Below, in pieces: positions 1 to 33,785 of a stretch of DNA of 38,308 nucleotides. Numbering within the stretch: position 1 is the first letter of the stretch; every line of letters begins with the position of its first letter. The stretch lies in IMG/VR virus record IMGVR_UViG_3300021961_000249, positions 1-38,308 of that record; one strand, written 5' to 3'. A model generated the notes under the pieces. The model was not told where the DNA came from. It saw nothing but the letters and a program-made list of their open reading frames with translations, and searched no databases. The position numbers and the translations under genes were made by a program. The DNA is from a virus.

Positions 1-2983
1 TAGAATTTTGAATTGATATTATATTATTGAAAACTGCACTGGACCCGCTCATCTTGACACTCAAAATTGGAGTAACTGCAGTTGATGAAATATTACTTCT
101 GTCAACTCCAATTCCACCACCTTTTAAATGAAGTAAATATGACGGATTAGTAGTTCCTATACCAACATAACCAGAACTATTGATACGCATTGCTTCACTC
201 AATGACGCTATACTTCCAACCGCAACTGTTTGTGCTGCTCCAACATACCAACGGTGTGTATCGCTGCCTTGAACATAAGCCATTCTACCTAAATTACTTG
301 CTGGAGTAGAACTAAAGAATGATGCGGCTGATGCAGTCGATGGAGATACGCCATAACCTAAAAATGGTCCACCACTACTATATTCAGAACCAAATACTAC
401 TATGTTGCCAGTATCATATGCACCTTGAAGTATTATTGCTCCTTGTGGAGATGTTCTGTTTCCTGCGGTAATGTATCCTCCGCTTACTTCTAATTTTGAT
501 ATTGGAGATGATGTGCCTATACCAACAATTCCAAAACTACCTGTTTTACTTGCACTTATATTACTGCAAGTAATATTTGCAGTCATTACACTACTTCCAC
601 TGATATATCCTGATACTGTAATTCCGTTTCCATCTTCTGATACAATTGAATCTCCAATGATATTTACACCAGTGGCTTTTGTCAGTCTTCCACTTGTTAA
701 ATTAGTTTGTTGGTCAGGCCCTACAATTATTTTACTATTTACACCGCTGCCTGTTACAAAGAAATAATCTCCTTGACCATCCCACAAGAAACTACTTAAA
801 TTGCCACTTCCACTATCATACATTTCTATACCGGCATATCTTTGATATGGACTTAACGCATTTAGAGTAATTATATTGTCAGTAACAACCAAAGTGCTTG
901 AAGTAATATAAATGTAACTTGCACTAAATAATGAAGCAAAAATACTACCGGTAACAGTTAAATTTCCATTGATAAATGCGTTACTAGCAGTAATTTTTGA
1001 AGCAATAATATTTCCACTTGCACTAATATTACTTGCAGTCAAATTTGTAAGTGACAATCCATCACTCAAACTTACACTACCTGTAAATTGGTGAGTATTG
1101 GTTGATGTAAACCCGTGTCTACTGCTTCCGCTTACGTCCAACAAGAAAGCAGGACTTGTTGTACCTACACCAACATTTCCATTTGTATCTATTGTTACTC
1201 TTCCAGTTCCATTAGTTTCAAATATAAGTGCGGACGCATCATTTGTTCCTAACAATGCAGTTGTTCCAAAGCTATTTCCACCTTGAACAAATGCATTTCC
1301 GCTTGGAGAAACATAACTTGCAGTTGATGCGTTATTAGCCCAACTAGCAGTTCCAAATAAACTTGCAGTAACTACACTAGCACTAATATTTCCAGTTACA
1401 TCAAGTGTATTAACAGGGACAGTCGTACTTCCTATTCTTGTTTTACCCGCAAATATATTTAAATCACCTGTATCAGCTTGATAAATACCCCATCCATTGG
1501 TAACAATATTTGTTGTTTTTTGTTTATTAATATAAACACCATATGAATTAGTAACAGTTATACCACCAGCACCACCGCTGGGAAATGGTGACCCAATTTG
1601 ATGATTATATAAATTATTAATACTACCAGTAGAATTTCCTGTAATTATATCAATAAAAGTTCCTGTTCCAGCAATCCAATTAGGAATGCTAAATGTTGGA
1701 ATATTTGGACTGATTTGATTGGTCAAATATGTGTTTGTTATGTTTCCGCCTGAATCCAATGATGCTGTATTGGATAATAAAGTTCCATTTCTTGATGCTC
1801 TATAACTTCCACTAAAACTTCCACTTCCGGCGATAATTATCTGATCAAAACTTGCTTGATTTTGAATTGCGGTGCTTGAAGTGAAATTATTAACATAATA
1901 AGCATTATTTATACCACTATCATTTGCACTAGTAGCCAATCCTTGGTTTTGATTTTGAACTGTAGTAATAAATAATGATGCTGAACCCAATGATCCATTA
2001 TGAGTATCTGCTATATTAAGTCTGTATAATCCACTGGTAGATGTATTTATTGCAACATTACCATTACTATTAATGGACATTCTAGTAGTGCCATTGGTTT
2101 CAAGTGCTAATGATTGTGCATCATTTGTTCCTAATAAAGCAGTTGTTCCAAAACTATTTCCGCCTTGAACAAATGCATTTCCACTTGGTGAAACATAACT
2201 TGCAGTTAAACTATTATTGGCCCAACTACTTGTAATATTATATGTTCCAACAGGTAAAAATGAAGCAGTTGATGCGTTATTAGCCCAACTAGCAGTTCCA
2301 AATAAACTTGCAGTAACACTACTTGCCGTAATATTACCAATTACATGTAATGTTCCTTTGGGATCACTAGTTCCAATACCAACTTGACCACTGCCACTAA
2401 TAGAAATACCACCGGCAGTTGCACTCCATGGCGCAATAAAGAAACATTGGCTAGAAGAAATTGAAGAACTTAAAAATATTATACCACTATCACCGCTTGC
2501 AACAATTGGATTATAAGAACTGCCGGCGGCATTGGTTAAGAACAGAGTTCTTTTTTGATTTGCACTTGCAATTTCTATTTGGTGTGCAGAACTTGGCGTT
2601 GTAGATCCGGTATAAACGTGTAAATTAGAATTTGGAGAAGTAGTTCCTATACCTACATTTGAACCACTTTCGTATATACTACTCGTTCCAACTGAAGTTG
2701 AAGAAATAAATTTTGCTATATAATTTGTAGTTCCTGAAACAGTTCCAGAACCTCCGCCTGCATTTAATGCAAATGAAGCAGTTAAAGCATAACTGGAACT
2801 TATTGCATTTCCTACTGTAAGACTATTTAATGAAGCACTTGTAAGACTGGCACTATTATTAAATAAAATAACACTACTGGTAGCAGCTGATATCTTTGTT
2901 TCTAAAAAAGTATTGCCGGATGAACTAACCGTGCTTAGGATTAGATCCCCTGCATTATAAATTACTTGACTTCCAATAGGCAT
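1..2983 (-). CDS. Tail-fibre-like repetitive virion protein, C-terminus outside window
   Basis: The frame is open from the ATG at 2983 to the left window edge (994 whole codons), so the 3' end is missing. The protein is rich in Ser, Thr, Gly, Ala and Asn, with no signal peptide or membrane segment. Five copies of a motif close to VGIGTTSP, each followed by a short L-x-V strand, are spread along it. Such repeats are typical of trimeric tail fibres and often precede a C-terminal S74-type intramolecular chaperone, but that region is not visible, so a chaperone is only a guess. A segment around RYAGIEMYDSGSG matches RYAGIDVYDSGSG in the next gene upstream, so the two are related. Internal duplication is strong, including an exact 53-base repeat. 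The start is preceded by the ATATTTATA-like element and has no Shine-Dalgarno sequence. Likely role: receptor-binding or distal tail fibre. Confidence 0.75.
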   Translation of the reverse strand, partial: MPIGSQVIYNAGDLILSTVSSSGNTFLETKISAATSSVILFNNSASLTSASLNSLTVGNAISSSYALTASFALNAGGGSGTVSGTTNYIAKFISSTSVGTSSIYESGSNVGIGTTSPNSNLHVYTGSTTPSSAHQIEIASANQKRTLFLTNAAGSSYNPIVASGDSGIIFLSSSISSSQCFFIAPWSATAGGISISGSGQVGIGTSDPKGTLHVIGNITASSVTASLFGTASWANNASTASFLPVGTYNITSSWANNSLTASYVSPSGNAFVQGGNSFGTTALLGTNDAQSLALETNGTTRMSINSNGNVAINTSTSGLYRLNIADTHNGSLGSASLFITTVQNQNQGLATSANDSGINNAYYVNNFTSSTAIQNQASFDQIIIAGSGSFSGSYRASRNGTLLSNTASLDSGGNITNTYLTNQISPNIPTFSIPNWIAGTGTFIDIITGNSTGSINNLYNHQIGSPFPSGGAGGITVTNSYGVYINKQKTTNIVTNGWGIYQADTGDLNIFAGKTRIGSTTVPVNTLDVTGNISASVVTASLFGTASWANNASTASYVSPSGNAFVQGGNSFGTTALLGTNDASALIFETNGTGRVTIDTNGNVGVGTTSPAFLLDVSGSSRHGFTSTNTHQFTGSVSLSDGLSLTNLTASNISASGNIIASKITASNAFINGNLTVTGSIFASLFSASYIYITSSTLVVTDNIITLNALSPYQRYAGIEMYDSGSGNLSSFLWDGQGDYFFVTGSGVNSKIIVGPDQQTNLTSGRLTKATGVNIIGDSIVSEDGNGITVSGYISGSSVMTANITCSNISASKTGSFGIVGIGTSSPISKLEVSGGYITAGNRTSPQGAIILQGAYDTGNIVVFGSEYSSGGPFLGYGVSPSTASAASFFSSTPASNLGRMAYVQGSDTHRWYVGAAQTVAVGSIASLSEAMRINSSGYVGIGTTNPSYLLHLKGGGIGVDRSNISSTAVTPILSVKMSGSSAVFNNIISIQNS
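1320..1372. repeat. Exact 53-base direct repeat, copy 1
   Basis: It is identical to 2265-2317, inside the same tail-fibre-like gene and in the same reading frame. It encodes the module around LFGTASWANNASTA. The neighbouring segment encoding SPSGNAFVQGGNSFGTTALL is also present twice, with a few base differences. This points to recent duplication or recombination within the fibre gene. Confidence 0.9.
2265..2317. repeat. Exact 53-base direct repeat, copy 2
   Basis: Second copy of the 53-base unit at 1320-1372, about 945 bases away and in the same frame. Confidence 0.9.
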
Positions 2984-2987
2984 ATAT

Positions 2988-2995
2988 TATAAATA
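2988..2995 (-). promoter_or_regulatory. TATTTATA element upstream of fibre gene
   Basis: The sense strand reads CTATTTATA, then ATAT, then the ATG at 2983, a gap of 4 bases. This is one mismatch from the ATATTTATA element seen before most operon-leading genes here. It lies just downstream of the terminator-like hairpin at 3041-3070, as expected for a new transcription start. Confidence 0.45.
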
Positions 2996-3040
2996 GTTAT
3001 GATAATAAATATACGATTGATATAGTATATTACAATATAA

Positions 3041-3070
3041 CAACCCAAGAAACCGAAATTTCTTGGGTTG
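3041..3070 (-). terminator. Hairpin terminator after long fibre-like gene
   Basis: A perfect 12-bp stem (CAACCCAAGAAA with TTTCTTGGGTTG) closes a 6-base loop 30 bases past the stop codon of the minus-strand gene ending at 3100. The following minus-strand sequence (TTATATTGTAAT) is T-rich but not a pure T tract, so termination may be weaker than at the other hairpins here. Confidence 0.65.
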
Positions 3071-3099
3071 CCAGAAACAACATACTCTTGATTTTTATA

Positions 3100-6000
3100 T
3101 TAATTGAACCACTGTGATAATGGAACTCTCTTCCAAACTTGATTTGTATAAACGTATATAAAATTATTATCTACATTTATTTGACCAGGCATACCACTAG
3201 AAGTTGGTGTATTTGGCACCAAACCAGGTGCATTTCCTGGGAAACTGCCTGTGCTTAATGTCAATGTATTAAATGAACCTGTTATATAAGTAACCAAAAC
3301 TCCAGTTGCATATGTTATACTTCCAGTTAATTCAACTCTTAAATTGGATGAACTAATTACGGAACTTGATATGTAATTAGAATAAACATTAGTTAATAAT
3401 GCGTTTGAAGCAGTGATTCTTGAACTAGAAACGTTTGTAGAAAATACGTTTGTATATAATGCATTGGAAGAAGTAATTTGAGAAGCACTGATACCTGTTC
3501 CTGTGTATGACAATGTAGTTCCATTATCACTCAACAAACTGTTTGTTATATTCTTTCCACTTGATTGGACTTTTGGAATTACATTTGTTGTCAATGTAGT
3601 TTCACTGCCAAATTGGCTTAAAGGACCACCAATAATTATGGAACTTGCAGTTGTATATGTTCCAGATCCACTATTTGCACTAAATATAATCCAGTTATCC
3701 GTTAAAGAGTCCCACAAGAAAGAACTAGTAACATTACTTTGTATACCACCGCTTCCGCTATCATATACATCAATACCTGCATATCTCATTATTGGACTAG
3801 CAGCATTCAATAAAATTCTATTATCACCAATAATAATCGTGCTGCTACTAATATTTACGATTGAACTTGACCCATAAATTGTCAAATCTCCATATAAAAA
3901 TGTAGAACCTGACACATGTAAATCTTTACCAATTCCAACACCGCCATTGACCGTTAATGCGCCTCCATTAGTCCAACTTGTAGCATTTGTCGTATTGCTA
4001 AATAAAATTTTATTACTTGCAGATACTGGCAGTTCTGTAATAACGCCGGTATTGGCACCTTGGCCAGTAAGCACTCTAAACCCATTAGAGTTTTTTCCAA
4101 CATACAATGATGCTGTTTCATTACTTATTGGTTGACCAATTTGGATTGTGGCACCTCCTGTATCGCTAAATAATGATATATAATTAAGATTTGTGCCATT
4201 ATCATTACTTATCAATAATGACCCACTCGTATCTCCTATTTTTACTGTATTAGTATTTGGATTATAAGACAATACATTACTGTCTGTTAAAATAGACTGA
4301 GCGCTTCCTGTATTTTCAACAAACGCAACATAATACGTAGAATTGGTGTTAGGTATATTTGTTACAACAACCTTACTTGCAGTTTCAACTGTTCCTATTA
4401 TAGACCCCACCACAGATAAACTTCCACTAATACTCAAACTTCCAGTTACTTTAACGGAATCACTTGTAGCATCTCCTAAAAGTGTATTTCCAGTAGCGGT
4501 AAGATTTGTAAATGTGGCCGCTGCTGGAACAACTCCACCTATTACGGTGTTATTAATAGTGCCACCGTTTATAGTAGCATTACCAGTAGAAACGCTACTA
4601 CCACTCAATGCACCTGTAATTGATGTTATTATTGCATTACCAGTAACATTTATATTACTTGAGGTTATTGCAGTTGCAGATAAAACACTAGTAACAGTTA
4701 CAGTGCTTGAGGTTATTGCATTTGCAGATACAATCAAAGCCGCCCCGCTCAATACATTAACACCTGTTATACTCGTAAGTGTAGCATTTCCAGATTGAAT
4801 GCTACTACCGCTCAATGCGCCTGTAATTGATGTTAATGTAGAATTACCAGTGACTGACAAAGACGACCCAGTGAATTGTGTTCCAACAATGATACCTCTA
4901 CTTGCACTAATCGCAAACGCTGTTCCTGATGTGCCGGATACGCTGTCTATCAATAATGCAACCGAACTACCAGTTGATACCAAAGAAGTTATACTAAACA
5001 CCGTATTAGAAGATGTTACGGCTGAAGCACTTATATTAACGCCTACAATTGTACTGCTACCTGTTGACATCAATTCAACAAAATCAACACGGTTAGTAAA
5101 TAATGCGGCGCTAGAGGTTATTTGAGATGCAATAAATGCTCCGCTGCTACTCAATGTATTTGTAGTTGCATCCCAAGTTAGTGTTTGACTATCGGTTCTT
5201 AACGATCTTGCACCTGTTGTGCCATCTACAAAAGTTACATAATAAGGCCCTACTCCTGTAGTTGTATCTGTAAGTATAACCGTGCTTGAAGTAGCTGCGT
5301 AACTTGAACTTATTGCATTACTTGAAGTAGCATTTAATGTTCCAACGATAGATAAACTTCCACTAATACTTGCGCTACCTGTAACTACTATTAAATCACT
5401 TGTCGCATTTCCTAAAAAGGTATTTCCAGTAGCGGTAAGATTTGTAAATGTGCCTGCGGCAGGTGTTGTTCCACCAATGACAGTATTGTTAATATTACCG
5501 CCATTGATTGTTGCATTACCGGTGGAGACGCTACTTCCGCTTAATGCGCCCGTGATTGTGGTCAAATTAGAGTTACCAGTGATCGTCAATGATGATCCTG
5601 AAATAGAACCTACTACCGAAAAACTACCTGTTAATGATGCAGATCCTGTAATTTGTAATGTATCAGTTAATGCGTCACCTAAGACTGTATTTCCCAAAAC
5701 AGTTAAACTTCCACCATCAACAATACTTGAACTTACGGTTAGAGTATTTGATCCCAAATTACCTGTGAAATTTGCACCAGATGCACTAATTACAAGATTT
5801 GCCCCATTCAAATATGATGTAGATCCTGAAAATAACATGTTGCCACTTGCCGTGACATTGGTCAAGTTAGTAGCACCAATTACAGTTAAAATGCCTGAAT
5901 CATAAATTCCACTTGCACTTAACGTAGAACTCATTGATACCGGACCAGTAAACGTTGCTGCTGCGGAAGTCAATGCGGTGCTTGCGCTTATTATACTTGC

Positions 6001-6204
6001 TGTAAGAGTAGTAACAGTTAAATTAGTAATCGTTACACTTGGAAGCGTATTACTGCCGGTAAGATAACCTGACGCATCTGTCAATATAAGAAGGTTACTT
6101 CCGCTTATAATTCTCTCTGTAAATGGAAATTTTCCAAATCCATCCGCACTTGCACTCGTTTGTGCGATTATTACATTTAATTGATTGTCATTTGGGTAAG
6201 GCAT
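3100..6204 (-). CDS. Long repetitive tail-fibre-like virion protein (1034 aa)
   Basis: A 1034-residue Ser/Thr/Gly/Asn-rich protein built of short beta-type repeats (many copies of SGSLS, TGSAS, SSSV and ITGALSGSS). A module containing NNTVIGGTTPAAGTFTNL occurs twice as near-identical copies, a pattern common in phage fibres. A later segment (RYAGIDVYDSGSG, then SSFLWDS) is shared with the downstream fibre-like gene. The C-terminus, YVYTNQVWKRVPLSQWFN, resembles the end of the gp15-like protein just upstream. No enzymatic motif is visible. The leader contains ATATTTATA 26 bases before the ATG, and a minimal ATG-TAA start-stop lies between the two. A hairpin terminator follows the gene. Likely a long tail fibre or baseplate-attached structural protein; the exact role is unknown. 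Confidence 0.75.
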   Translation of the reverse strand: MPYPNDNQLNVIIAQTSASADGFGKFPFTERIISGSNLLILTDASGYLTGSNTLPSVTITNLTVTTLTASIISASTALTSAAATFTGPVSMSSTLSASGIYDSGILTVIGATNLTNVTASGNMLFSGSTSYLNGANLVISASGANFTGNLGSNTLTVSSSIVDGGSLTVLGNTVLGDALTDTLQITGSASLTGSFSVVGSISGSSLTITGNSNLTTITGALSGSSVSTGNATINGGNINNTVIGGTTPAAGTFTNLTATGNTFLGNATSDLIVVTGSASISGSLSIVGTLNATSSNAISSSYAATSSTVILTDTTTGVGPYYVTFVDGTTGARSLRTDSQTLTWDATTNTLSSSGAFIASQITSSAALFTNRVDFVELMSTGSSTIVGVNISASAVTSSNTVFSITSLVSTGSSVALLIDSVSGTSGTAFAISASRGIIVGTQFTGSSLSVTGNSTLTSITGALSGSSIQSGNATLTSITGVNVLSGAALIVSANAITSSTVTVTSVLSATAITSSNINVTGNAIITSITGALSGSSVSTGNATINGGTINNTVIGGVVPAAATFTNLTATGNTLLGDATSDSVKVTGSLSISGSLSVVGSIIGTVETASKVVVTNIPNTNSTYYVAFVENTGSAQSILTDSNVLSYNPNTNTVKIGDTSGSLLISNDNGTNLNYISLFSDTGGATIQIGQPISNETASLYVGKNSNGFRVLTGQGANTGVITELPVSASNKILFSNTTNATSWTNGGALTVNGGVGIGKDLHVSGSTFLYGDLTIYGSSSIVNISSSTIIIGDNRILLNAASPIMRYAGIDVYDSGSGGIQSNVTSSFLWDSLTDNWIIFSANSGSGTYTTASSIIIGGPLSQFGSETTLTTNVIPKVQSSGKNITNSLLSDNGTTLSYTGTGISASQITSSNALYTNVFSTNVSSSRITASNALLTNVYSNYISSSVISSSNLRVELTGSITYATGVLVTYITGSFNTLTLSTGSFPGNAPGLVPNTPTSSGMPGQINVDNNFIYVYTNQVWKRVPLSQWFN
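4484..4516. repeat. 33-base direct repeat, copy 1, inside fibre gene
   Basis: Identical to 5420-5452. It forms the core of a longer, diverged duplicated module (roughly 4440-4630 and 5360-5580) that encodes TFTNLTATGNT and its surroundings. Confidence 0.85.
5420..5452. repeat. 33-base direct repeat, copy 2, inside fibre gene
   Basis: Second copy of the unit at 4484-4516. The flanks are diverged but clearly alignable. Confidence 0.85.
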
Positions 6205-6230
6205 ACGTAGATTACATAAAGGTTAATATC

Positions 6231-6239
6231 TATAAATAT
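6231..6239 (-). promoter_or_regulatory. ATATTTATA element upstream of long fibre gene
   Basis: Exact ATATTTATA on the minus strand, 26 bases before the ATG at 6204, in the short AT-rich gap after the gp15-like gene. A candidate phage promoter. Confidence 0.45.
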
Positions 6240-7455: not shown

Positions 7456-7457
7456 AA

Positions 7458-7928: not shown

Positions 7929-7931
7929 AAA

Positions 7932-9125
7932 TTATCCTACGTAAATTAAAAGTGGAACGGATCGCAACGTATCTCTCATTTTTTCAGCTTCAGTAGCTTT
8001 TGCTTCCATCAAAGCAGTTCTGCCTGTCGCTTCAAGATTTTCTCTCAATTGAGTAATTAATGCTTCCTTTTCTGTTTGAGCTTCATTTCTCAATTCTCCA
8101 CCATCTAAGGTAACTTCTCCGCCGGGTATTGGCACAATATTATATTTTTGTCTTATTGCACCCAATAATTCCTTACATAATGCTAAGAAATACTTTTTAA
8201 TCCACTGTTTACCCACAGCATTTAATTTGTTATAAACTACATTTTGATAGGGAGCGTTACTATAATCGCTGACTTCATCATAATTATCCGCAGGTGAAAC
8301 TGCACTATTAAACTTATCTTTTTCTACCACATATTCAACATAAGCATCATGGTCATATGTTGGAATTGGAAAAATTTTTAATTGATTATTTGTTATTTCA
8401 AAACTATATGCACTCTTACGAACCATGTCGTTAAATTCAATGGCTTGACCACGAAGCAAATCTTCAAAGATTGGAGTCATTAAGAATTGAGTAGCAGGAC
8501 TATAACCAGCAAATCCCATTTCATTTAATATATTACTATAACTCATACCAGTCATACTGAATGGGTCATAAATACGAGCAAACGCTGGAGCTGGTCCGTG
8601 AAATAATCTTCTAATTTCTACCTTGTTTCCACATTCACGTTCACATTCAATTAACTGATTTAAATCGTAATTTTGTTGACCCTTTTTCAAATGAACAGGA
8701 ACTCTTTTTACTGGAACATCTCCGCCTACATCAATTTCGCTTCCATATTGACGAGACAATTTTACAACAAATGGAAGGCCTGATCCTTGTATATTTTTAC
8801 CTGTAATATTTGGATTATCAGTTGTATTTAATCCTTGCAAATTCAACAAATTATTTCTGATATTGAACTGATTTACTTGTGCGCCATATTCGCTGACAGC
8901 TTCTTCAAAACAAGCGTAAAAACTGACATCTTTCAATTCAATGTCAATGATTGGATATCCTAATCTTTTTGCTGCCCATTCTGCACTTTTCTCACAATCA
9001 TATTCAAATTTACCAATACTGGCAGTATTGGAAGTTTCACTCAAATAAAATCCAAAGGGAACCGTAGTTAAGTTAACTGCGCTTCCACTGCCGGGCCATC
9101 TAATTGTGGTAGGGTCAAATGCCAT
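7932..9125 (-). CDS. gp13-like neck / head-tail connector protein (putative)
   Basis: A 397-residue soluble protein. Residues of about 45-85 (CEKSAEWAAKRLGYPIIDIE, then LKDVSFYACFEEAVSEYG) follow the pattern of T4-like gp13 neck proteins: a short helix, a (L/Y)G-x-P-hydrophobic turn, and an acidic helix. The middle is mixed, and the C-terminal third is a long charged helix region (KEALITQLRENLEATGRT) suited to packing against the portal. It opens the 13-14-15 block. The start is preceded by ATATTTATT, 4 bases upstream, so this block may have its own promoter. Confidence is moderate because the assignment relies on remembered motif style and synteny. Confidence 0.5.
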   Translation of the reverse strand: MAFDPTTIRWPGSGSAVNLTTVPFGFYLSETSNTASIGKFEYDCEKSAEWAAKRLGYPIIDIELKDVSFYACFEEAVSEYGAQVNQFNIRNNLLNLQGLNTTDNPNITGKNIQGSGLPFVVKLSRQYGSEIDVGGDVPVKRVPVHLKKGQQNYDLNQLIECERECGNKVEIRRLFHGPAPAFARIYDPFSMTGMSYSNILNEMGFAGYSPATQFLMTPIFEDLLRGQAIEFNDMVRKSAYSFEITNNQLKIFPIPTYDHDAYVEYVVEKDKFNSAVSPADNYDEVSDYSNAPYQNVVYNKLNAVGKQWIKKYFLALCKELLGAIRQKYNIVPIPGGEVTLDGGELRNEAQTEKEALITQLRENLEATGRTALMEAKATEAEKMRDTLRSVPLLIYVG

Positions 9126-9129: not shown

Positions 9130-9138
9130 AATAAATAT
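9130..9138 (-). promoter_or_regulatory. ATATTTATT element upstream of gp13-like gene
   Basis: One mismatch from ATATTTATA, 4 bases before the ATG at 9125 on the minus strand. It would serve the 13-14-15 block. Confidence 0.35.
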
Positions 9139-11901: not shown

Positions 11902-12513
11902 TTACCAATATTTACCTTTACTTTTTGTTCCTAAACTACGAATTCTATGACTACGACAACTCCAATAACCGGCTGTTGTGCGATCTTTCTTTTGAGCACA
12001 TCTGTGTCTTGCTCTAAAACTTTTTCTACGAGCCGCACTGCTCGCACGTATTCTCATTTTTGGGTCGCCAAACGATACCTTTTTAATTCTACCACCTTTA
12101 CTCTTTACATAAACTGCAAATTTTTTTGGTCCGCCCGGAGTTCTAAACGGTCTATTTAATTTAACATTACGTCCTCTGTGTTTTACTTCATTTATTAATT
12201 CTTCGTCATCTTCTTCTTCAATAGGAGCATCTAAATAAACTTCTCTACCTTCATAAATTGCAGTTTCTCCGATATCACTTTCAACTAAATCTGCATCTTC
12301 ATCATTCAACTCAATTAAATCTTGTTCATATAATTTACGAACTTCTTTTATTAATTCAAAATACGCATCACTATATGTTCTGAATACATTTCCTTCAAGA
12401 GTAAGATTATGATCCAAATGATATCTCAGATTAGAAGTAATTGCCGCATCTTGGACCAATTTCATTGGTGCAGGTGGATTTTGCAATTCGTTTAAAATTT
12501 CTTTCAGTTTCAT
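11902..12513 (-). CDS. Basic C-terminal protein with RRKSFRARH motif, head-associated (putative)
   Basis: A 203-residue protein. The start is the ATG at 12513; an in-frame TTG 21 bases upstream overlaps the promoter-like element and is rejected. The N-terminus MKLKEILNEL looks like a capsid-targeting peptide with an L-N-E cleavage site for gp21. The middle is acidic. The C-terminal 80 residues are strongly basic and contain VSFGDPKMRIR, RRKSFRARHRCAQ and TTAGYWSCR, a conserved motif (DUF5872-like) often found in T4-like marine phage proteins; the two Cys with His may bind metal. It follows the gp23 terminator and has its own ATATTTATA element 6 bases before the ATG. Possibly a DNA-binding protein carried in the head. 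Confidence 0.65.
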   Translation of the reverse strand: MKLKEILNELQNPPAPMKLVQDAAITSNLRYHLDHNLTLEGNVFRTYSDAYFELIKEVRKLYEQDLIELNDEDADLVESDIGETAIYEGREVYLDAPIEEEDDEELINEVKHRGRNVKLNRPFRTPGGPKKFAVYVKSKGGRIKKVSFGDPKMRIRASSAARRKSFRARHRCAQKKDRTTAGYWSCRSHRIRSLGTKSKGKYW

Positions 12514-12519: not shown

Positions 12520-12528
12520 TATAAATAT
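12520..12528 (-). promoter_or_regulatory. ATATTTATA element after the gp23 terminator
   Basis: Exact ATATTTATA on the minus strand, 6 bases before the ATG at 12513 and 23 bases past the gp23 terminator. It would restart transcription for the 12513-9162 cassette. Confidence 0.5.
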
Positions 12529-15400: not shown

Positions 15401-15491
15401 AATGTTATTTGAATTTTCTGAAGTTATTGAGGATAAACTTCAATACGGATTTATTTAATCTTGAGCGGCAAAGGAAAGCCGTAATATTGTA

Positions 15492-15500
15492 TATAAATAT
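15492..15500 (-). promoter_or_regulatory. ATATTTATA element of the gp22-gp23 operon
   Basis: Exact ATATTTATA on the minus strand, 91 bases before the gp22 ATG, in the divergent gap 15401-15546. It faces away from the plus-strand copy at 15533-15541. The leader between holds CGGCTTTCCTTTGCCG, a possible 4-bp hairpin. Confidence 0.45.
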
Positions 15501-15532: not shown

Positions 15533-15541
15533 ATATTTATA
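15533..15541 (+). promoter_or_regulatory. ATATTTATA element of the plus-strand genes
   Basis: Exact ATATTTATA on the plus strand, 5 bases before the ATG at 15547. It shows that the element follows gene orientation rather than genome strand. Confidence 0.5.
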
Positions 15542-17002: not shown

Positions 17003-17011
17003 TATAAATAT
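17003..17011 (-). promoter_or_regulatory. ATATTTATA element before the helical protein gene
   Basis: Exact ATATTTATA on the minus strand, 4 bases upstream of the ATG at 16998. Confidence 0.5.
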
Positions 17012-19682: not shown

Positions 19683-19691
19683 TATAAATAT
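19683..19691 (-). promoter_or_regulatory. ATATTTATA element after the portal gene
   Basis: Exact ATATTTATA on the minus strand, 22 bases before the ATG at 19660. Confidence 0.5.
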
Positions 19692-19727: not shown

Positions 19728-21641
19728 TTATTCCTCAATTATGTTGCTTTCATCAAGCATTGATTTTGAATTTACTTCCTTAAGCAAATCCCGTTTAACA
19801 TCTTGATGTGTTTGTAAAAATTGTTTTAATCCTTCAAGATGTTCCATGCTTAACGCAGATTTTATTTTTGTTTTACTTCTGAGAGGATCTGTTTGTGATA
19901 TACGTGTATTTTCTTTATTTCCCATTGGGTCATATCCAAATGTGGAATCTTTTCTATACTTATGTTCACCTGCTTGTGACGCTCTTTTTGATTTTTCCGT
20001 CAATGATGGAGGAGTTTCCGCACCTGCGCCAGGTTCACCGACTGGACTTGGTTCACTTCCACCGCCGCTTGGTGGAGTTCCTTCTGGCGAAGGTGGTTCA
20101 CCTGATGGAGCGCCGCCACTATCACCGGATGATTCTGGTGGTTTAATCTTATTAAATGGCTTAGCAGGATCAATACCTTCTTCTTCAATTTGTTTAAATC
20201 TATAATTGTCTTTTGCATCTTCAACGATGTCGTTCTTTTGTAAGTCAACATCTTCATCTGACAATTTAAATACGTTATTATAAATCCATTTTCTGCTGAA
20301 CATTTTTTGTTCAACCATATCTTTCGCCAAAGTAACTTTATCTGACCAAATTTTAACCTTTTCAGTCTCTAAAATTACAGATGGATTAGTTAATTCTAAG
20401 TCAAAATTTACTAATTGGTCATCAGTATATCCTTGTGAATATAAATGGACAATTGCAATCTTTTTAAGTTCGCTTACTAATATTTTTTGAATACGATTGA
20501 TTGTTTTTGCGAATCTAACATCTTCACTTGCAAGAGTTGCTTTGCCACTCAAATCTTCTTCATAACCCAAAAATGCTTTTGGAATTTTTAATGCGGCCAA
20601 CATCTTATTTTTTAGATAATTGATATCATCAATACCAGTAAATTCCATGCCACTTAATGGTTCGATGCTAGTTCCACTATCACTGCCACGAACTGGCAAA
20701 TAGAAATCTTCTACCATGTTTTGAAGATTGAATCTCAAATTATAATCGCCAGTATTTGGGTCAAGATATGGAATTTTCTTGGTCTTATTCATCAATTTTT
20801 CCATGTATTGATCGACCTCTTGAGGCGGAATATTACCAACGTCTACTTTAAATACTCTCTTTTCAGGAGCACGCATTACACGATGAATTAACATTGCGTC
20901 TTCCATCAAACTCAACTGTTTCCATACTCTTCTACCACCTTCAATCATGCTTTTGCCATATGGCAAGAAGTTACTATCACTCAACAAACGGAAATGTGCT
21001 ACTTGATAATTTTCTAATTCTTCAATCTTACCACCCTCAGGCAAATTGATTTGGAACTTGGTATAATTCTTATTATTTAAATCACTGTTTTCTACACGGG
21101 TAACATTATAAGAACTAATTGGTTCAATCATGTATACACCGTATTCTGGACTAATATACATTTTTAAATAGAAATCTCCATATTTTACAAGATTTCTAGT
21201 CCAACTCCACATGTTAAATTCGATATTAAGAATATCATAAAACAAATTTTCTAGGATTTGTTTAATATTTGTATCATTAGTATGGACCGTTAAAATTTTA
21301 CCCATTTCATTCTTAGTGACACATTCGTCTGCGTAAATATCTAATGCAGATGAAATAATTGGGTCCATATCCATCGTATCATAATCTCTAAACAATTCAA
21401 TACGAGCTGCTTGATAACTAAGTGTAAAATCTCTACTATATTGATTATATGCACTTGTGCGTATTCTATTAAATCTGTCACGTAATGTATTTCTATCAGT
21501 AGCATACATTACTTCGTCTGTATCTACTACCTTTAATTTTTTGCCACCAATATTACGAACTATTACATCGGTGGAAAACAACCGTTTCAACCTTGAATAC
21601 AAGGAACGTTGTTTTAATATTTGAAATTCTTCTGATGGCAT
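19728..21641 (-). CDS. 20: Portal (head vertex) protein, gp20-like
   Basis: The 637-residue protein is the T4-type portal, the dodecamer through which DNA enters (T4 gp20: 524 aa). Family markers include FRDYDTMDMDPIISSALDIY, ADECVTKNEMGKILTV, LFYDILNIEFNMWSWTRNLV, KYGDFYLKMYISPEYGVY and PEKRVFKVDVGNIPPQEVDQ. The central LSGMEFTGIDDINYLKNKML and the PKAFLGYEEDLSGKATLASE loop are also typical. The extra length is a C-terminal extension starting near residue 500: a Pro/Gly/Ser/Glu-rich flexible stretch and then a charged region ending in NSKSMLDESNIIEE. An ATATTTATA element is 8 bases before the ATG. The gene lies 24 bases after gp17. Confidence 0.96.
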   Translation of the reverse strand: MPSEEFQILKQRSLYSRLKRLFSTDVIVRNIGGKKLKVVDTDEVMYATDRNTLRDRFNRIRTSAYNQYSRDFTLSYQAARIELFRDYDTMDMDPIISSALDIYADECVTKNEMGKILTVHTNDTNIKQILENLFYDILNIEFNMWSWTRNLVKYGDFYLKMYISPEYGVYMIEPISSYNVTRVENSDLNNKNYTKFQINLPEGGKIEELENYQVAHFRLLSDSNFLPYGKSMIEGGRRVWKQLSLMEDAMLIHRVMRAPEKRVFKVDVGNIPPQEVDQYMEKLMNKTKKIPYLDPNTGDYNLRFNLQNMVEDFYLPVRGSDSGTSIEPLSGMEFTGIDDINYLKNKMLAALKIPKAFLGYEEDLSGKATLASEDVRFAKTINRIQKILVSELKKIAIVHLYSQGYTDDQLVNFDLELTNPSVILETEKVKIWSDKVTLAKDMVEQKMFSRKWIYNNVFKLSDEDVDLQKNDIVEDAKDNYRFKQIEEEGIDPAKPFNKIKPPESSGDSGGAPSGEPPSPEGTPPSGGGSEPSPVGEPGAGAETPPSLTEKSKRASQAGEHKYRKDSTFGYDPMGNKENTRISQTDPLRSKTKIKSALSMEHLEGLKQFLQTHQDVKRDLLKEVNSKSMLDESNIIEE

Positions 21642-21649: not shown

Positions 21650-21658
21650 TATAAATAT
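21650..21658 (-). promoter_or_regulatory. ATATTTATA element between gp17 and gp20
   Basis: Exact ATATTTATA on the minus strand, 8 bases before the ATG at 21641, in the 24-base gap after the terminase stop. Confidence 0.5.
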
Positions 21659-21665: not shown

Positions 21666-23255
21666 TTACAATAACCACGTAAGATTTTCTGATTTATCGT
21701 TGAATTGTCCCGTTTTCATAATCCATGCATCATGTGCGGAAATTGATTTTGGAGTATAAACTTTATCATTTGCAACTCTAGAAATACCTCCTAACATTGA
21801 TTTATTCAAATCCATAGTTTGTTGTCTGAGTCTCAATGCGGTATCTCTCACCCACAATCCAATACAAAAAGACATAACTAAATCGTCATTATATCCTTTC
21901 ATTGCAACCGCTTTATTACCGTCCCAAATAAATACTGATAGTTCATCTAATAGTCTTTTTGAATAAATAACCAACGATTGTTCTCTGAAATATGTATCCA
22001 ATTTAGATATTAATAACGGTCTTGTTTTCTGACTATTTGTGAAGCCAGGAACCATTCTTTTATCTTCACGATTGTATTTGTTTGTCAATTGACGTTCAAC
22101 ATCAACGTATTGTAAATCTGCACTACTATAAAATGTATTGGGATATTGTCTATCAATTATCTGTTGTAATACTGCCCATCCAATATTATTGTTTTCTACT
22201 ATCAATAAAGCATTGTTATATTCAGTCGCAACACTGACTAACATATTACCATAATCTTTAGTGTTTATTTGACCTCTATACTCGGCCACTTGTGTCAATG
22301 ATTCTACATCAATTACATGAAATGCACTATAATCGGTGCTATCACCTCTTGCAACGTCTGCTGCCACAATATAATTTCTACTATAATCTGGGTATTCCCA
22401 TATCCAATAACCATGGTCTACTCCACGCATTTCAACTGGGTCTTTTGCTTTGGTTTGTTTATAAAATTCAACTAAATGTGACTCAATTACAGTATTTCCT
22501 GATGACAAAAATTCAGTGTCACATTCTTGTGCTGCTCTTTTTGGACCTAATTCATCAGTTTGTCTGTTTCTCCAAGACTGGTCTCTTTCTGGATGTCTAT
22601 CCCACTTTAAACGTATTGTTTTGAACGTATTTTTCTTGGCTTCTGCGTCAACCCACATTTGATGGAAGAAATTACCAACACCATTTGGTGTAGAAAGAAG
22701 AATTGCACGACCACCGGTTGCCATTGTCTGTTGAGCAGATGTCCAAACTTCTTCTGCGTTATCAATAAACGCACATTCATCCATTACAAGTAAATATGAA
22801 CTGAAACCACGAGCACTATCAGCGGCAGAAGAAGCTGCCAAAACTCTAGATTCGTTTTTAAATTTAAGAGAAAGTCTATTATCTTCTACTGTTGGGACTT
22901 TTAACCAACTTGGCAAACTATTATTTGCTAATCTAATTTTTGATACGATTTCTTTTGATGTATTTTGAACTGTAGATAATATTAAAACGTTTTTGCCTGG
23001 ATTAAATATCATAGTCCACAATGCATATGCGGAAACCAATGTAGATATACCCATCTGGCGTGATTTTAAAACTATATTTCTGTCATTATCAATGAAATCT
23101 TGAAGAGTTTCTTCTTGAAATTCATATAATTCAAATGGAATGATGCCTCTTGTTTGATGTTGAATTTTTACGTATTTCTTCATGAAATACATGGGATCAA
23201 CCAAACACTTTTTATACTCTTCTTTGATTATTTCTTTAAGTGTTTTTTCACTCAT
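21666..23255 (-). CDS. 17: Terminase large subunit, gp17-like
   Basis: The 529-residue packaging motor is an N-terminal ATPase plus C-terminal RNase-H-like nuclease. The Walker A-type loop is SRQMGIST (65-72), Walker B is YLLVMDE with Asp159-Glu160, and the coupling motif STP is at 188-190. The nuclease acids are Asp300 (VAADVARGDSTD), Glu354 (LIVENNN) and Asp457/Asp458 (YNDDLVMSF), in the same order as in T4 gp17 (610 aa). It docks on the gp20 portal and pumps DNA into the prohead. It overlaps the upstream zinc-ribbon gene by ATGA. The C-terminal portal-binding tail is shorter than in T4. Confidence 0.97.
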   Translation of the reverse strand: MSEKTLKEIIKEEYKKCLVDPMYFMKKYVKIQHQTRGIIPFELYEFQEETLQDFIDNDRNIVLKSRQMGISTLVSAYALWTMIFNPGKNVLILSTVQNTSKEIVSKIRLANNSLPSWLKVPTVEDNRLSLKFKNESRVLAASSAADSARGFSSYLLVMDECAFIDNAEEVWTSAQQTMATGGRAILLSTPNGVGNFFHQMWVDAEAKKNTFKTIRLKWDRHPERDQSWRNRQTDELGPKRAAQECDTEFLSSGNTVIESHLVEFYKQTKAKDPVEMRGVDHGYWIWEYPDYSRNYIVAADVARGDSTDYSAFHVIDVESLTQVAEYRGQINTKDYGNMLVSVATEYNNALLIVENNNIGWAVLQQIIDRQYPNTFYSSADLQYVDVERQLTNKYNREDKRMVPGFTNSQKTRPLLISKLDTYFREQSLVIYSKRLLDELSVFIWDGNKAVAMKGYNDDLVMSFCIGLWVRDTALRLRQQTMDLNKSMLGGISRVANDKVYTPKSISAHDAWIMKTGQFNDKSENLTWLL

Positions 23256-23966: not shown

Positions 23967-24722
23967 TTATTTTAAAAATGTATTATCAAAAACTTTAATT
24001 GACTTTTTATATGAACTTAAAGTTTCATCATTTGAATTGTCTGTAAATTGCCAATTCCAAAATAATTCGTTCGGAGTATTAAATCCAAAAAACTGAAGCA
24101 CTTCTTTTTGTGTTTGTGTAACATCTTTACCGTTCCAATTTTGTCCCGTCGCAATAAATCCAGAATCAATATCTTTTATAATATTACTTTCTCCTAAACT
24201 TGAATGTCTATTTTCAATCCAAGTTAGTCTTTCTATTAATTTTTGATAATATCCATTGGCTTGACCCCATCTTATACTTGCAAAAAACACCACACAATCA
24301 CTTTCAAATAAATCTTTACTTACTTTCCACAATTCGTCATTCTTATTATTAATACTAGCCCAACAACGATGGTATCCACTTGGATTTTTTTCTTTATCCT
24401 TCAACACAGAATCTTTTGTTCCACAGTGATTTCCCCACTTAGAAGATACATTACCTTCACATGGAAAAATATTTAACTTTGTAGTATCAATAATTGTTAC
24501 TTTTTCTTTTCCTAACATTTCTTGAATCTTAAATGCTAATTGTGTGCTTTTGGCACTATCATCTTTGTGACCACTCCATCTATTGCTAGTAGTCAATAAC
24601 AATACTTTATTTTTACCACGAAGATAATCTATAGTTTTTTTATACTTACGAGCATACATATCCATCTCAGATTCACTGGATGGAATTTTAGCTTCATTTA
24701 ATAAATCAATTAGACTAATCAT
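23967..24722 (-). CDS. Flavodoxin-fold NAD(P)H-dependent FMN reductase-like protein
   Basis: The 251-residue protein has the features of the flavodoxin-like NADPH-dependent FMN reductase superfamily: strand VLLLTTSNRWSGH (40-52) followed by a Ser/Lys-rich phosphate loop (DDSAKSTQLA), VTIIDTTKLNIFPCEGN (75-91), and the second flavin loop VVFFASIRWGQANGYYQKLI (144-163), where others have P-x-x-W-x-N/S-x-x. Cys88, Cys100 and Cys120 lie in the variable region. Residues 1-11, MISLIDLLNE-A, look like a gp21-cleavable capsid-targeting peptide. An ATATTTATA element is 4 bases before the ATG, after the sheath terminator. The electron donor and substrate cannot be predicted. Confidence 0.75.
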   Translation of the reverse strand: MISLIDLLNEAKIPSSESEMDMYARKYKKTIDYLRGKNKVLLLTTSNRWSGHKDDSAKSTQLAFKIQEMLGKEKVTIIDTTKLNIFPCEGNVSSKWGNHCGTKDSVLKDKEKNPSGYHRCWASINNKNDELWKVSKDLFESDCVVFFASIRWGQANGYYQKLIERLTWIENRHSSLGESNIIKDIDSGFIATGQNWNGKDVTQTQKEVLQFFGFNTPNELFWNWQFTDNSNDETLSSYKKSIKVFDNTFLK

Positions 24723-24726: not shown

Positions 24727-24735
24727 TATAAATAT
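24727..24735 (-). promoter_or_regulatory. ATATTTATA element before the reductase-like gene
   Basis: Exact ATATTTATA on the minus strand, 4 bases before the ATG at 24722 and just past the sheath-gene terminator. Confidence 0.5.
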
Positions 24736-24773: not shown

Positions 24774-24794
24774 CTGTTTTTATTTTAATTCTTA

Positions 24795-27700
24795 TTAAGC
24801 TCCTGGGAATTGAGCACCAGTTGGCAACACATTGAAATCAAGAACAATGAATTCTGCTGTTCTGGTTGGTTGGATATAGATTTGTCCATAGAGGATGTTT
24901 CTATCAATAATGTCTGGGGTATTATTGGTTTCATCCATCTTAACTTGGAAGGCATACAATCCACTACGTTGTTGAACAGATTCTAAGTATGGGTTGACAA
25001 TACTCAAGAAACGGTTTCTTGTAGCAGCAATGTTTTGTTCGAATACCAAATATCTACTTGTGCTTGCGATGAATTTCTTCAAGGCAATCAACAATCTACG
25101 AACATTGACTCTATCAAGAGCACTTGACTTTTGTTGAAGTGTCTTTTGACCCCATACACAGATACCTTGACCAGGAAATGCTGCGATTGGATTTACACGA
25201 CCTTCATAGAGTGTATCACGTTCACCGTGTGTAGTTCTATCAAGAACTTGAACTGCTTGTGGGATACCACCACGATTCAAACCGGCAGGAGCAAACCATT
25301 CAGCAGCAACATTGTCATTAGCAGCATATACTGAAGGTAATACAACTGAAGGAGGAACACTTATAATCTTATTAGTGTTTGTATCCAAAATACGAACCCA
25401 AGGATAATAGGTTGCCACATAGTTACTATCGATTGTAGATATATCACTTACAGCAGCATCAATCAATCCAACAGATTGTCCACTATTTGGGAACACTACG
25501 TTATCCATTATGTAGAAACAATCTCCACGGGATTCACACATATCGATTGTCAAATCGGCAACATAACTATGTTGTTGATGTAAAATGCCAGGTGTCACAA
25601 TCAAATTGATATCGAATTCATCAGCATTTCCGAGAGCCCCAATTGATTGTTTATAAGCAACTGAACCTGCACTTGAAATGTTTGTACAATCCAATCCTTG
25701 TGTATTGCCTGCTACGATATCACCTCCCAAGTTTATCTTAACGGCTGGTGATTGACCGTCAAATCCACCTTGGAATCCGAATATAAACTTACGCATCTTG
25801 GCATATGATGTTTCGTTCACATCATCAGGATTTGTAGAAGGTATACTTCCACTCAAACTTGCGGCCAAGAATGATCCTGTATTTGAACCTACAATTACAT
25901 TATCCAAAGCAAATCCGACATTTACGCCTGATGATGGATTACTTGGAATTGGAGCAAAATATTGAGCATTATCATTATATACTGGAACACCAGTTGATAC
26001 TGTTGGATATAATCCTACAAGTTCAGTATCAGTTGAAGGAACATCATTAAATACTACACCTGAAGCGTATCTTCCCAAAGCTTGTCCATACAACGAAGCA
26101 TTACTATATTTCATTGTTGGGGCAACTTTAGCAATATCACCTGAGAGAGGAGTATAATATGCTTGGAATCCGTATGGAACAGATGCCACAGGATATTCAT
26201 TTGTGGACATTTCGATTCTAATATATTTACTTACATTAGAATAAATTCCATATTCAACAATCTTGCCAGAATAAGTTATAAAATTATATCTATCACCGAT
26301 TCTGCGAGCAATAAAGTTTGCACTATCTGGATCTAAACTTAAATTGGTGAATGTTTCAAGATACTTAGGACGTTTGTCTGTATCATTATAATCACGAACA
26401 GAAAGTGTGAAAGATCCCCAATCACTTCCTGGCACTGAACCTGCCAATTTAACGTCGCTGATTTCAATCTTATACAATTTATTAGCATTTGTTCCATCAG
26501 TTAATGTATGGATTTTAAATAAATCGTGTCTTGTTGTTGTGCCATCAACAGCTGCAATCTTTTGAGAAACAACATATGGTGTATAAGCATTAGTCAAACT
26601 GAATTGACTATCACCATCAGCAGGATTAAACGAATTTGCATCAGTGAAATTTAATGGATTTCCACCACCAAACGTATTGGAATTTGGAAGAACTGCAATT
26701 TTAATTCCATATTTTGTTGGATTTGCAGCAACTTTTGCCATCGAATCTTCAAATGCTTTATAAAGATATGCATTTACAGTGGAATCAGTGGTTTTTGCTG
26801 ATTTTTGGAATACATTTGTAATATATTTTTGGTTTGCCTTATCCAATGAGAATTCATAGATACCGTATCTACCAGCAGAACTACCGCTCAAATTTAAATA
26901 ATAATTTGATTGTATGCTTGAACTGTTAGAACTCAAAATCGAAGTCAAACTTAAACTTGAACCACTAAATCCAGGAGATTGTAAATCGGTTCCTGGTGAA
27001 TGATTTGTTGTATCAGCCAAAACTGCCAACAAAATTTGATTTGCATTTGATTGTGAAGTCCAATTTCCACAACTATCTACACTTGATGATCCAGCAGAAG
27101 TAAATGCACCGGTGAATTTACCAAATGATCCTGATACTAAACCTTCCAATCTAAATACTGGATCTACGCAGTTATCTTTATATGAAATAAATTTTGCAGA
27201 TTTTAATGTTACACTAGTAAATGGTTCATCGGTTCCATATACAATTTTTTCAGTCAAAGATCCTGTGACTGAAAAGTTTTGTAAACCGTAATTCAATAAT
27301 TCGGCTGCAGTCATTGATGATGCTGTAGGAAGTGTGGTTGATCCTGCCCAACTCATTGTAATGCTTGTATAACCATATCCAAAAGATGGAATATTTATAG
27401 ATGATCCTGCAAAAAGTTGACTGCCACTTGGAGATGTCGCTGATGTAGCAGTTCCTGAACCAGCTGCAAATGTAAATATAAATGAAGAAGTAGGAATGTT
27501 CGCAGTGAATGTTACACTATCTATATAAGTTGCGCCAGTAGCAGTTGCTGTCAACGAAGAGAATCCAGCAAAAAATGAACCACTTGATAATGATCCTGAT
27601 GGAATAAAGAAAGAAGACCCGGTAACTAACGCACCAGCGTCAATATTTCTAGTATAACTTCCTGATTCTGCATAAATTGCAATTGGATATCTTTGATCGT

Positions 27701-27998
27701 AACCAGTTAAACCGCCAACGCGGCAAACAGTTACGAATCCTTTTTCGTTAAGATATTCTTTGGCGGTGTATGGTCCATAATAAGTTCCATCAGCAATACC
27801 AAACTTTTCTTCTAAATCAGCAGTGTTGGTAACCAAAGTTGGGCTAAATCCTGGACCTTTTGCGAACGGTGCAACGACTACGGCTCCAATATCAGCTACA
27901 CCTTGAACAATGCCTGATAAATCATTTTCTCTTGTAAAGACTCCTGGGCTAACAATAGTGTTAACAGGACTAAATCTTCCACCTTCTTGTATTGGCAT
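24795..27998 (-). CDS. 18: Tail sheath protein, gp18-like, oversized
   Basis: A 1067-residue contractile tail sheath subunit (T4 gp18: 659 aa). The N-terminus (NTIVSPGVFTRENDLSGI, then GAVVVAPFAKGPGFSPTLVT and EKFGIADGTYYGPYTAKEYL) and the C-terminus (GQGICVWGQKTLQQKSSALD, VNVRRLLIALKKFIASTSRY, FEQNIAATRNRFLSIVNPYL, and ending FIVLDFNVLPTGAQFPGA) are classic sheath regions that build the inter-subunit arms. The middle, from about residue 110 to 700, is a Ser/Thr/Gly-rich expansion probably exposed on the tail surface. It has a good ribosome site (AAAGGAAA, about 9 bases before the ATG). ATATTTATA lies 39 bases upstream, so the leader is conventional. In T4 the tube gene 19 follows 18; here it does not. 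Confidence 0.95.
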   Translation of the reverse strand: MPIQEGGRFSPVNTIVSPGVFTRENDLSGIVQGVADIGAVVVAPFAKGPGFSPTLVTNTADLEEKFGIADGTYYGPYTAKEYLNEKGFVTVCRVGGLTGYDQRYPIAIYAESGSYTRNIDAGALVTGSSFFIPSGSLSSGSFFAGFSSLTATATGATYIDSVTFTANIPTSSFIFTFAAGSGTATSATSPSGSQLFAGSSINIPSFGYGYTSITMSWAGSTTLPTASSMTAAELLNYGLQNFSVTGSLTEKIVYGTDEPFTSVTLKSAKFISYKDNCVDPVFRLEGLVSGSFGKFTGAFTSAGSSSVDSCGNWTSQSNANQILLAVLADTTNHSPGTDLQSPGFSGSSLSLTSILSSNSSSIQSNYYLNLSGSSAGRYGIYEFSLDKANQKYITNVFQKSAKTTDSTVNAYLYKAFEDSMAKVAANPTKYGIKIAVLPNSNTFGGGNPLNFTDANSFNPADGDSQFSLTNAYTPYVVSQKIAAVDGTTTRHDLFKIHTLTDGTNANKLYKIEISDVKLAGSVPGSDWGSFTLSVRDYNDTDKRPKYLETFTNLSLDPDSANFIARRIGDRYNFITYSGKIVEYGIYSNVSKYIRIEMSTNEYPVASVPYGFQAYYTPLSGDIAKVAPTMKYSNASLYGQALGRYASGVVFNDVPSTDTELVGLYPTVSTGVPVYNDNAQYFAPIPSNPSSGVNVGFALDNVIVGSNTGSFLAASLSGSIPSTNPDDVNETSYAKMRKFIFGFQGGFDGQSPAVKINLGGDIVAGNTQGLDCTNISSAGSVAYKQSIGALGNADEFDINLIVTPGILHQQHSYVADLTIDMCESRGDCFYIMDNVVFPNSGQSVGLIDAAVSDISTIDSNYVATYYPWVRILDTNTNKIISVPPSVVLPSVYAANDNVAAEWFAPAGLNRGGIPQAVQVLDRTTHGERDTLYEGRVNPIAAFPGQGICVWGQKTLQQKSSALDRVNVRRLLIALKKFIASTSRYLVFEQNIAATRNRFLSIVNPYLESVQQRSGLYAFQVKMDETNNTPDIIDRNILYGQIYIQPTRTAEFIVLDFNVLPTGAQFPGA

Positions 27999-28037
27999 AT
28001 AATATATTTCCTTTCAAATTTTATAAAAAATCTTAAA

Positions 28038-28046
28038 TATAAATAT
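28038..28046 (-). promoter_or_regulatory. ATATTTATA element before the sheath gene
   Basis: Exact ATATTTATA on the minus strand, 39 bases before the ATG at 27998. Here the leader is long enough to hold a Shine-Dalgarno sequence, unlike at most other sites. Confidence 0.5.
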
Positions 28047-28084
28047 TCCCAAAAATTTGAAGATGTCAATATTTATAACTTTTT

Positions 28085-31285: not shown

Positions 31286-31286
31286 A

Positions 31287-32231: not shown

Positions 32232-32234
32232 TTA

Positions 32235-32933
32235 TTATAGTATATCACCACTATCTTCGTCTATCAATTTTTTATTACGGTCAACTTTTACCCATGGGTT
32301 TTTTTCTAATGCAACCGCAATCTTCATTAATTTAATTGGGTCTATCGGTTTTTCGACATCTTCGTTTTTACGTTTAGATTTTTTGTTATCTTTTGAATCT
32401 TTATCGTTAACTCCACCAAAAGTCTCAGATTTATTATCTTCGGAAACATCTTCGGATTGTTCAGATTCTTCTGGTTGTGGAGGAACTGGAATATCCGGTT
32501 GAACAACATTTTCTTGGGTGTATGTTTGTTGTTTGGGTATATAACATATGGAATTTCGGGCAATTATCCCCTGTATAATATATCTTTTATAGTCATCATA
32601 CATCGTTTGATAATAAGAAAATGCACCATTAATATCATTGAATTGAGTTTCTGTTAATGAAATTTTGACGCAGTTATTTCTTTCTTTCCATTTTGTTACA
32701 GGAACATCCAATACCATACAAACGATATTTGTCAATAAATCCCGTTCATTTCTATCTCGTAATATAAAGAAATAATCTCGTTGTTCTTCTATCTCTAGTT
32801 CTTTTTCGTCAATGTTATACTTCTCACAAAGAATTCTAAGTTTTTCTTTTGCAGATATAGATTCGCCACCCACCCCTTTATCGGCTAGAGCTTTTACTTT
32901 TTTTATTAATTCCCGTATCTTTTCTGGTGTCAT
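32235..32933 (-). CDS. DUF2786-like protein
   Basis: A 232-residue protein whose first 45 residues (PEKIRELIKKVKALADKGVG, then ISAKEKLRILCEKYNIDEKE) match the helical DUF2786 pattern seen in bacterial and phage proteins. A mixed domain follows to about residue 140, then an acidic, Pro/Ser/Lys-rich disordered linker, then a short C-terminal helix (PIDPIKLMKIAVALEKNPWV). Function unknown; its place between a RuvC-like nuclease and the primase suggests DNA metabolism. The start codon lies inside the end of the RuvC-like gene, a 56-base overlap in another frame. Confidence 0.7.
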   Translation of the reverse strand: MTPEKIRELIKKVKALADKGVGGESISAKEKLRILCEKYNIDEKELEIEEQRDYFFILRDRNERDLLTNIVCMVLDVPVTKWKERNNCVKISLTETQFNDINGAFSYYQTMYDDYKRYIIQGIIARNSICYIPKQQTYTQENVVQPDIPVPPQPEESEQSEDVSEDNKSETFGGVNDKDSKDNKKSKRKNEDVEKPIDPIKLMKIAVALEKNPWVKVDRNKKLIDEDSGDIL

Positions 32934-33432: not shown

Positions 33433-33464
33433 ATACTATTATATAGTATACTTATTATTAAAGA

Positions 33465-33761
33465 TTATTTATATTTCTTTGTATTCAAACCTTTAACTAA
33501 TGCAGATGTCATTTTAGAAGAACTGTTTAATCTATCAGGAACATCTTTATAATTTGAAAGACCGACTGGTTGTTTAACTCTAAATCCACCTTTATCAATG
33601 GTATATTGTTGACCGTTATATGATGGTTCTGACTGAATTGAAATAGTATCTTGAGTGGTGTTGATTTTTCTAGCATTAAAAGCACCACCTACAGATTGTG
33701 TTTTGTATCTGTCTTCAAGTGTTTTGACTAAAGATTCTCTAGAAATTGTGTTATTAGGCAT
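33465..33761 (-). CDS. Small unknown protein, 98 aa
   Basis: A 98-residue polar protein (Ser/Thr/Lys/Asn-rich) beginning with a charged helix (SRESLVKTLEDRYKTQSVGG) and followed by a flexible, beta-type region (YNGQQYTIDKGGFRVKQPVG). No Cys and no membrane segment. I do not recognise a family; the composition fits a small structural or DNA-associated protein. An ATATTTATA element lies 15 bases before the ATG. Confidence 0.55.
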   Translation of the reverse strand: MPNNTISRESLVKTLEDRYKTQSVGGAFNARKINTTQDTISIQSEPSYNGQQYTIDKGGFRVKQPVGLSNYKDVPDRLNSSSKMTSALVKGLNTKKYK

Positions 33762-33776
33762 ATATTATTCTTTTTT

Positions 33777-33785
33777 TATAAATAT
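33777..33785 (-). promoter_or_regulatory. ATATTTATA element before the small gene
   Basis: Exact ATATTTATA on the minus strand, 15 bases before the ATG at 33761. Probably the start of transcription for the small gene and the nucleic-acid genes that follow. Confidence 0.5.

Follow-up and report, generated by a model that had tools for sequence, protein, structure and literature searches.

What is the function of a short word that recurs, in gene orientation, a few nucleotides before many start codons of a phage genome? The DNA analysed here (38,308 nucleotides in all, referred to as the window) is part of the genome of a T4-like myovirus, a 38-kb piece with a G+C content of 33%. It encodes a gp23-like major capsid protein (12606-14306, minus strand), a prohead protease (17030-17650), a portal protein (19728-21641), a terminase (21666-23255) and a tail sheath (24795-27998), together with an SbcCD-like nuclease, a primase and a RuvC-like resolvase. 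Judged by the capsid protein, the nearest named phages are Mel-JY01, Flavobacterium phage immuto and Rhodothermus phage RM378, and from these relatives we infer a host among the Bacteroidota. Over 37 kb the window is matched at 99.98% identity by the 65-kb contig G001, which runs 28 kb further right. Mel-JY01 (PP395634, L173), which carries both the word and the sigma-like gene discussed below and also encodes a bS21 ribosomal protein (22183-22410), is recorded as a Microcystis phage yet groups with phages of Bacteroidota, and its host label deserves a check.

The word takes the form ATATTTATA in the window, around the core TATTTATA that is common to the wider family. The window contains 12 exact copies of ATATTTATA, where 2.70 (sd 1.67) would be expected and none of 100 shuffles reached 12. 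Ten copies are intergenic, in sense orientation and directly upstream of a gene, and no sense copy lies within coding sequence. The remaining two, both on the plus strand and both absent from the initial annotation, are an antisense copy within the sheath gene (27391-27399) and an intergenic copy directed away from that gene (28069-28077). The annotation had listed ten genes preceded by the exact 9-mer, in gene direction on both strands, and we recovered every site.

Four of these exact copies lie within a few nucleotides of the ATG on the minus strand, at 12520-12528 (gap 6, ATG 12513; box in 15/24 orthologues), 17003-17011 (gap 4, ATG 16998; 31/41, 19 of them at gap 4), 24727-24735 (gap 4, ATG 24722; 12/15) and 21650-21658, before the portal gene (gap 8, ATG 21641; an intermediate 14/52). 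A fifth, at 15533-15541 on the plus strand (gap 5, ATG 15547), was found in exact form in 9 of 19 orthologues, every one at gap 5. Two minus-strand one-mismatch forms, noticed previously, are also real and each sits at gap 4: CTATTTATA at 2988-2996 (ATG 2983), before a gene that runs off the left end, and ATATTTATT at 9130-9138 (ATG 9125), before the head-tail adaptor-like gene 7932-9125, whose orthologues carry the exact core TATTTATA in 25 of 30 cases, 17 with gap 4. Once these two are counted, the earlier figure of seven sites 4-8 nt from an ATG is correct. The boxes before 12513 and 24722 lie just past a terminator, as had been described for many sites; in the wider family this association is modest (21/276 boxed versus 33/1040 unboxed upstream regions, Fisher p=0.002). 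In two orthologues of the 7932-9125 gene (L017, L021) the short-gap ATG opens a leader ORF of 9-12 codons that ends in a TGA overlapping the main gene's own ATG. The short-gap genes 11902-12513, 16594-16998 and 23967-24722 share a similar N-terminus, M-I/K-x-L-x-[DEN]-L-x-x-E, which is reminiscent of the capsid-targeting sequences of packaged T4 proteins.

Across 160 related contigs, TATTTATA emerged de novo as the top sense-biased upstream 8-mer, with 221-222 sense copies in upstream regions versus 45-76 antisense, and coding sequence contains far fewer copies per base. At 3-6 nt before an ATG it was found 112 times where a first-order Markov model of the same upstream regions predicts 1.58, an enrichment of about 70-fold, although many of the contigs are closely related and the counts are not independent events. 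The spacing peaks at gap 4 (n=59), and gaps of 0-1 are not seen. The only single-base variants common at short gap are T4->A and A8->T, and the T4 late promoter core TATAAATA occurs there 6 times versus 1.8 expected. No strong positional consensus for a -35 partner was seen upstream (about 150 effective sites). In immuto (NC_055915, L171), the coding-frequency control proposed in the initial annotation found 15 sense copies between genes, compared with zero across roughly 150 kb of coding sequence. The TATTTATA sites of immuto precede its terminase, portal, sheath, tube and tape-measure genes; none of 25 carries a TTG at -23, versus 17 of 17 early-type TATATTTAG sites. Between 60 and 76 kb of the same genome, numerous small genes are preceded by early-type promoters of the form GTTG-N19-TATATTTAgGTAT, which resemble host promoters and form a class separate from the late box. 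Gaps are mostly longer in immuto (10-33 nt) and Mel-JY01 (8-52 nt), so short gaps are typical of some members of the clade and not of all.

The orthologue comparison is nearly all-or-none. Orthologues of the boxed window genes keep the box, often in 75-100% of cases, and those of unboxed genes do without it (capsid 0/54, protease 0/53, terminase 0/48). The box is also kept where its distance from the gene varies: upstream of gene 18791-19660 (19683-19691, minus strand, gap 22, ATG 19660) it is present in 42/47 orthologues at gaps of 9-26 nt, and upstream of the sheath gene (28038-28046, minus strand, gap 39, ATG 27998) in 13/13 at 39-54 nt. Two further minus-strand copies have intermediate gaps, at 6231-6239 (gap 26, ATG 6204 of gene 3100-6204) and 33777-33785 (gap 15, ATG 33761 of the 98-aa gene 33465-33761). 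The sheath leader also contains a Shine-Dalgarno-like GAAAGGAA before the ATG, unusual for a phage of Bacteroidota, and a conserved TATAAATATT(A/G)ACATCTTGAATTTTTT lies about 30 nt upstream of the sheath box (28047-28084 in the window, and in relatives).

The longest gap belongs to the gene in the scaffold position (14357-15400), which directly precedes the major capsid gene; here the box at 15492-15500 on the minus strand lies 91 nt from ATG 15400 and diverges from the plus-strand site at 15533. All 33 relatives examined have a box here, about 90 nt from the ATG; the leader alignment was cut at a box, and the core is kept in the 30 aligned relatives. The intervening leader (15401-15491, minus strand) is conserved and folds into two covarying stem-loops, the first of which starts some 12-14 nt downstream of the box. 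In the stems, 93.6% of cells are paired versus 33-54% in slid controls, and 38 double changes were counted versus 12.5 in shuffled and at most 11 in slid controls. The loop is rich in TTCTTTG and the second stem is formed by TGAAGTT/AACTTCA. An Rfam search of the window, this leader included, gave no match; possibly it is an mRNA stabiliser or a regulatory RNA of the scaffold/capsid operon. The capsid gene itself, with no box of its own, is presumably read through from the 15492 promoter.

The initial annotation had suggested that a gp55-like sigma factor be sought elsewhere in the genome, and a candidate was found outside the window. A profile search with T4 gp55 gave a weak match to immuto gp118 (78174-78872; E 0.008). 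The family of this protein, annotated as 'hypothetical', is present in 15 of the 23 records searched, including G001 (53276-54151), and has a homologue in RM378 (p020). Sigma70_r2 is the commonest Pfam match among family members (11/34, best E 0.01). AlphaFold predicts a confident four-helix N-terminal core (pLDDT >90). Fold neighbours of the candidate in the PDB are mostly sigma factors, gp55 among them (7d7c; prob 0.84, TM 0.56 on target), with no Foldseek match to the PDB below E 0.001. Aligned by hhalign with a profile of nine gp55 sequences, the candidate profile was colinear (E 6e-5, probability 65%); comparison with the single T4 gp55 was uninformative, profiles being needed on both sides. 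At its C-terminus the predicted structure adds a helical domain that has no counterpart in gp55, and a PDB sequence search with the candidate profile returned no matches. No single one of these lines is decisive by itself; the gp118 family is a candidate gp55/sigma-2-like group and the probable reader of TATTTATA. Searches with Sigma70_r2 (PF04542) and phrog_1740 matched only RM378 p144, which rules out an easily recognised phage sigma in the relatives other than RM378. A window protein (32235-32933) was also considered as a sigma on account of its location close to the RuvC, primase and SbcCD genes, and gave no match to the immuto candidate.

How else might the box be explained? In a genome of 33% G+C a word of pure A/T could recur by chance, and we regard this as negligible: the roughly 70-fold excess at gaps of 3-6 nt, specific to strand and to orthologue, refutes it. 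A more serious proposal, raised as the alternative in the initial annotation, is an AU-rich element for translation initiation in the mRNA, a counterpart of Shine-Dalgarno or Kozak sequences with a preferred gap of 4. The sharp spacing peak 4 nt from the AUG would suit such an element, as would the host group, since Bacteroidota are without Shine-Dalgarno sequences and, in F. johnsoniae, the presence of an A at -3/-6 is important (PMC6847099). However, the same genes keep their box at gaps of 9-26, 39-54 and about 90 nt, and neither internal operon genes nor the gene for the most abundant protein, the capsid, has one. T4 and immuto, moreover, have comparable boxes with leaders. An RNA structure that starts just past the box is what a promoter predicts, and the covarying scaffold leader therefore favours a promoter over a translation enhancer. 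We consider the translational reading improbable.

Somewhat less improbable, though still unlikely, is a promoter that the host itself would read, either by sigma-A through a variant of its -7 box (TAnnTTTG changed to TATTTATA), by an alternative sigma or by sigma-A with a phage activator. The position from -12 to -5 is the same, TA/T bases are held in common with the host -7 box, an activator would remove the need for a -35 partner, and the homology of the phage candidate to known sigma factors is remote. Against this, immuto has a separate host-like class whose TTG is absent from TATTTATA sites, single-element promoters that have no -35 are typical of phage sigmas that lack a canonical region 4 (T4 gp55, phiEco32 gp36), and a gp55-like gene accompanies the box, with a homologue in RM378. 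The phage-promoter reading of the initial annotation is the one that the comparative data support. We think it quite likely that a clade of T4-like Bacteroidota phages uses TATTTATA as its single-element late promoter, probably read by a phage gp55-family sigma, with many of the mRNAs leaderless.

Under this promoter model the box would be a variant T4 late box at about -12 to -5, with no -33/-35 element, recognised by a diverged phage-encoded gp55-family sigma acting with host RNA polymerase. At about half of the sites, where the box lies 3-7 nt from the ATG, the RNA would start at the AUG or within a few nucleotides of it. The promoters of the sheath gene, gene 18791-19660 and the scaffold/capsid operon would give leadered RNAs. 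Late timing is suggested by the functions of the genes served. The model would probably hold for the window phage and for many of its freshwater relatives.

The case for leaderless messages comes from position. The sigma-A box of F. psychrophilum, a species in which just 5.5% of mRNAs lack a leader, spans -12 to -5 relative to the point where the transcript begins (PMC9723704). A box at gap 4 spans -12 to -5 from the A of the ATG, and because this matches the position of the flavobacterial box, many late mRNAs should be leaderless, with the transcript predicted to start at the AUG itself. In most of the short-gap families checked, conservation of the protein begins at the boxed ATG, the N-terminus of the 7932-9125 family being more variable. 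The earlier corollary that many transcripts would lack a leader gains support from the comparative data, and such messages would fit a host ribosome that works without Shine-Dalgarno pairing. We would give even chances to a broader proposal, namely that in a large and environmentally common clade of T4-like Bacteroidota phages leaderless mRNAs carry much of the late programme, with the diverged gp55 initiating many virion-gene transcripts at the A of the start codon, such that the late switch would also be a switch to leaderless translation.

In the literature searched we found no description of a late-promoter sequence for T4-like Bacteroidota phages, and within that scope TATTTATA is apparently the first. 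The analysis also names a candidate late sigma among 'hypothetical' proteins. For the cultured phage immuto, which infects Flavobacterium sp. LMO8, it gives exact predicted positions for late transcript starts, 3-8 nt downstream of TATTTATA and in some cases at the A of the AUG itself (10527, 74579 and 142474 of NC_055915), which makes the model directly testable; under it the box mutants TATAAATA and TATTTGTA would lose activity. If the short-gap messages are indeed leaderless, they would offer a natural system for initiation at a 5' AUG by ribosomes without Shine-Dalgarno pairing, in which promoter and start codon are fused as one unit.

The closest known system is that of T4, whose late promoter is a single 8-bp TATA-like box at -10 with no -35 element, used with gp55, gp33 and gp45 (PMC2988020, PMC7892883). 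Here too a single 8-bp box without a conserved -35 lies upstream of structural genes, its position relative to the RNA start being predicted, in phages with a T4-type capsid, portal, protease and sheath and a gp55-like protein. Six of eight bases are common to both in the same orientation; TATTTATA takes the place of TATAAATA, sharing TAT..ATA and differing only at positions 4-5, where the central AA of T4 is TT. The initial annotation was right that the two are reverse complements, a consequence of the common TAT..ATA frame, and misleading in concluding that the box is not simply that promoter. On its letters TATTTATA is the T4 late box with a changed central dinucleotide and not an inverted form of it, and an inverted T4 promoter giving antisense transcription was rejected, as the sites follow gene direction on either strand. 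The T4 box lies 14-28 nt before the ATG in the regions examined, compared with 3-7 nt at about half of the sites here, and the sigma candidate differs from T4 gp55 in its remoteness and its additional C-terminal domain. A search for the gp45 clamp (phrog_223) found it in T4 and in none of 15 relatives, where a diverged clamp is possible; this result and the extra domain suggest that the activation step may differ from that of T4.

The flavobacterial sigma-A promoter consists of TAnnTTTG at -12 to -5 and an upstream -33 element (PMC9723704, PMC6847099). It resembles the phage box in its 8-bp length and in TA at positions 1-2, and its distance from box to transcript start equals the distance from box to ATG here. 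Unlike it, TATTTATA has neither the terminal TTTG nor a TTG about 20 nt upstream, as the immuto sites illustrate. The middle/late promoters of phiEco32, tAATGTAtA, are likewise a single AT-rich element, read by gp36, a phage sigma without region 4 (PMC8948821), with the start 6-8 bp downstream; sequence and phage family are different, and PMC8948821 makes no mention of leaderless messages. In RM378 (NC_004735), a deep relative, TATTTAA peaks 6 nt before the ATG (11/40), a motif of which the literature searched gave no description; its box ends in AAA rather than ATA. Besides its homologue of the same sigma-like protein, RM378 also encodes p144, a clear sigma-70 factor whose gene lies close to that of the capsid. 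The short-gap habit, seen in RM378 as well, may be old.
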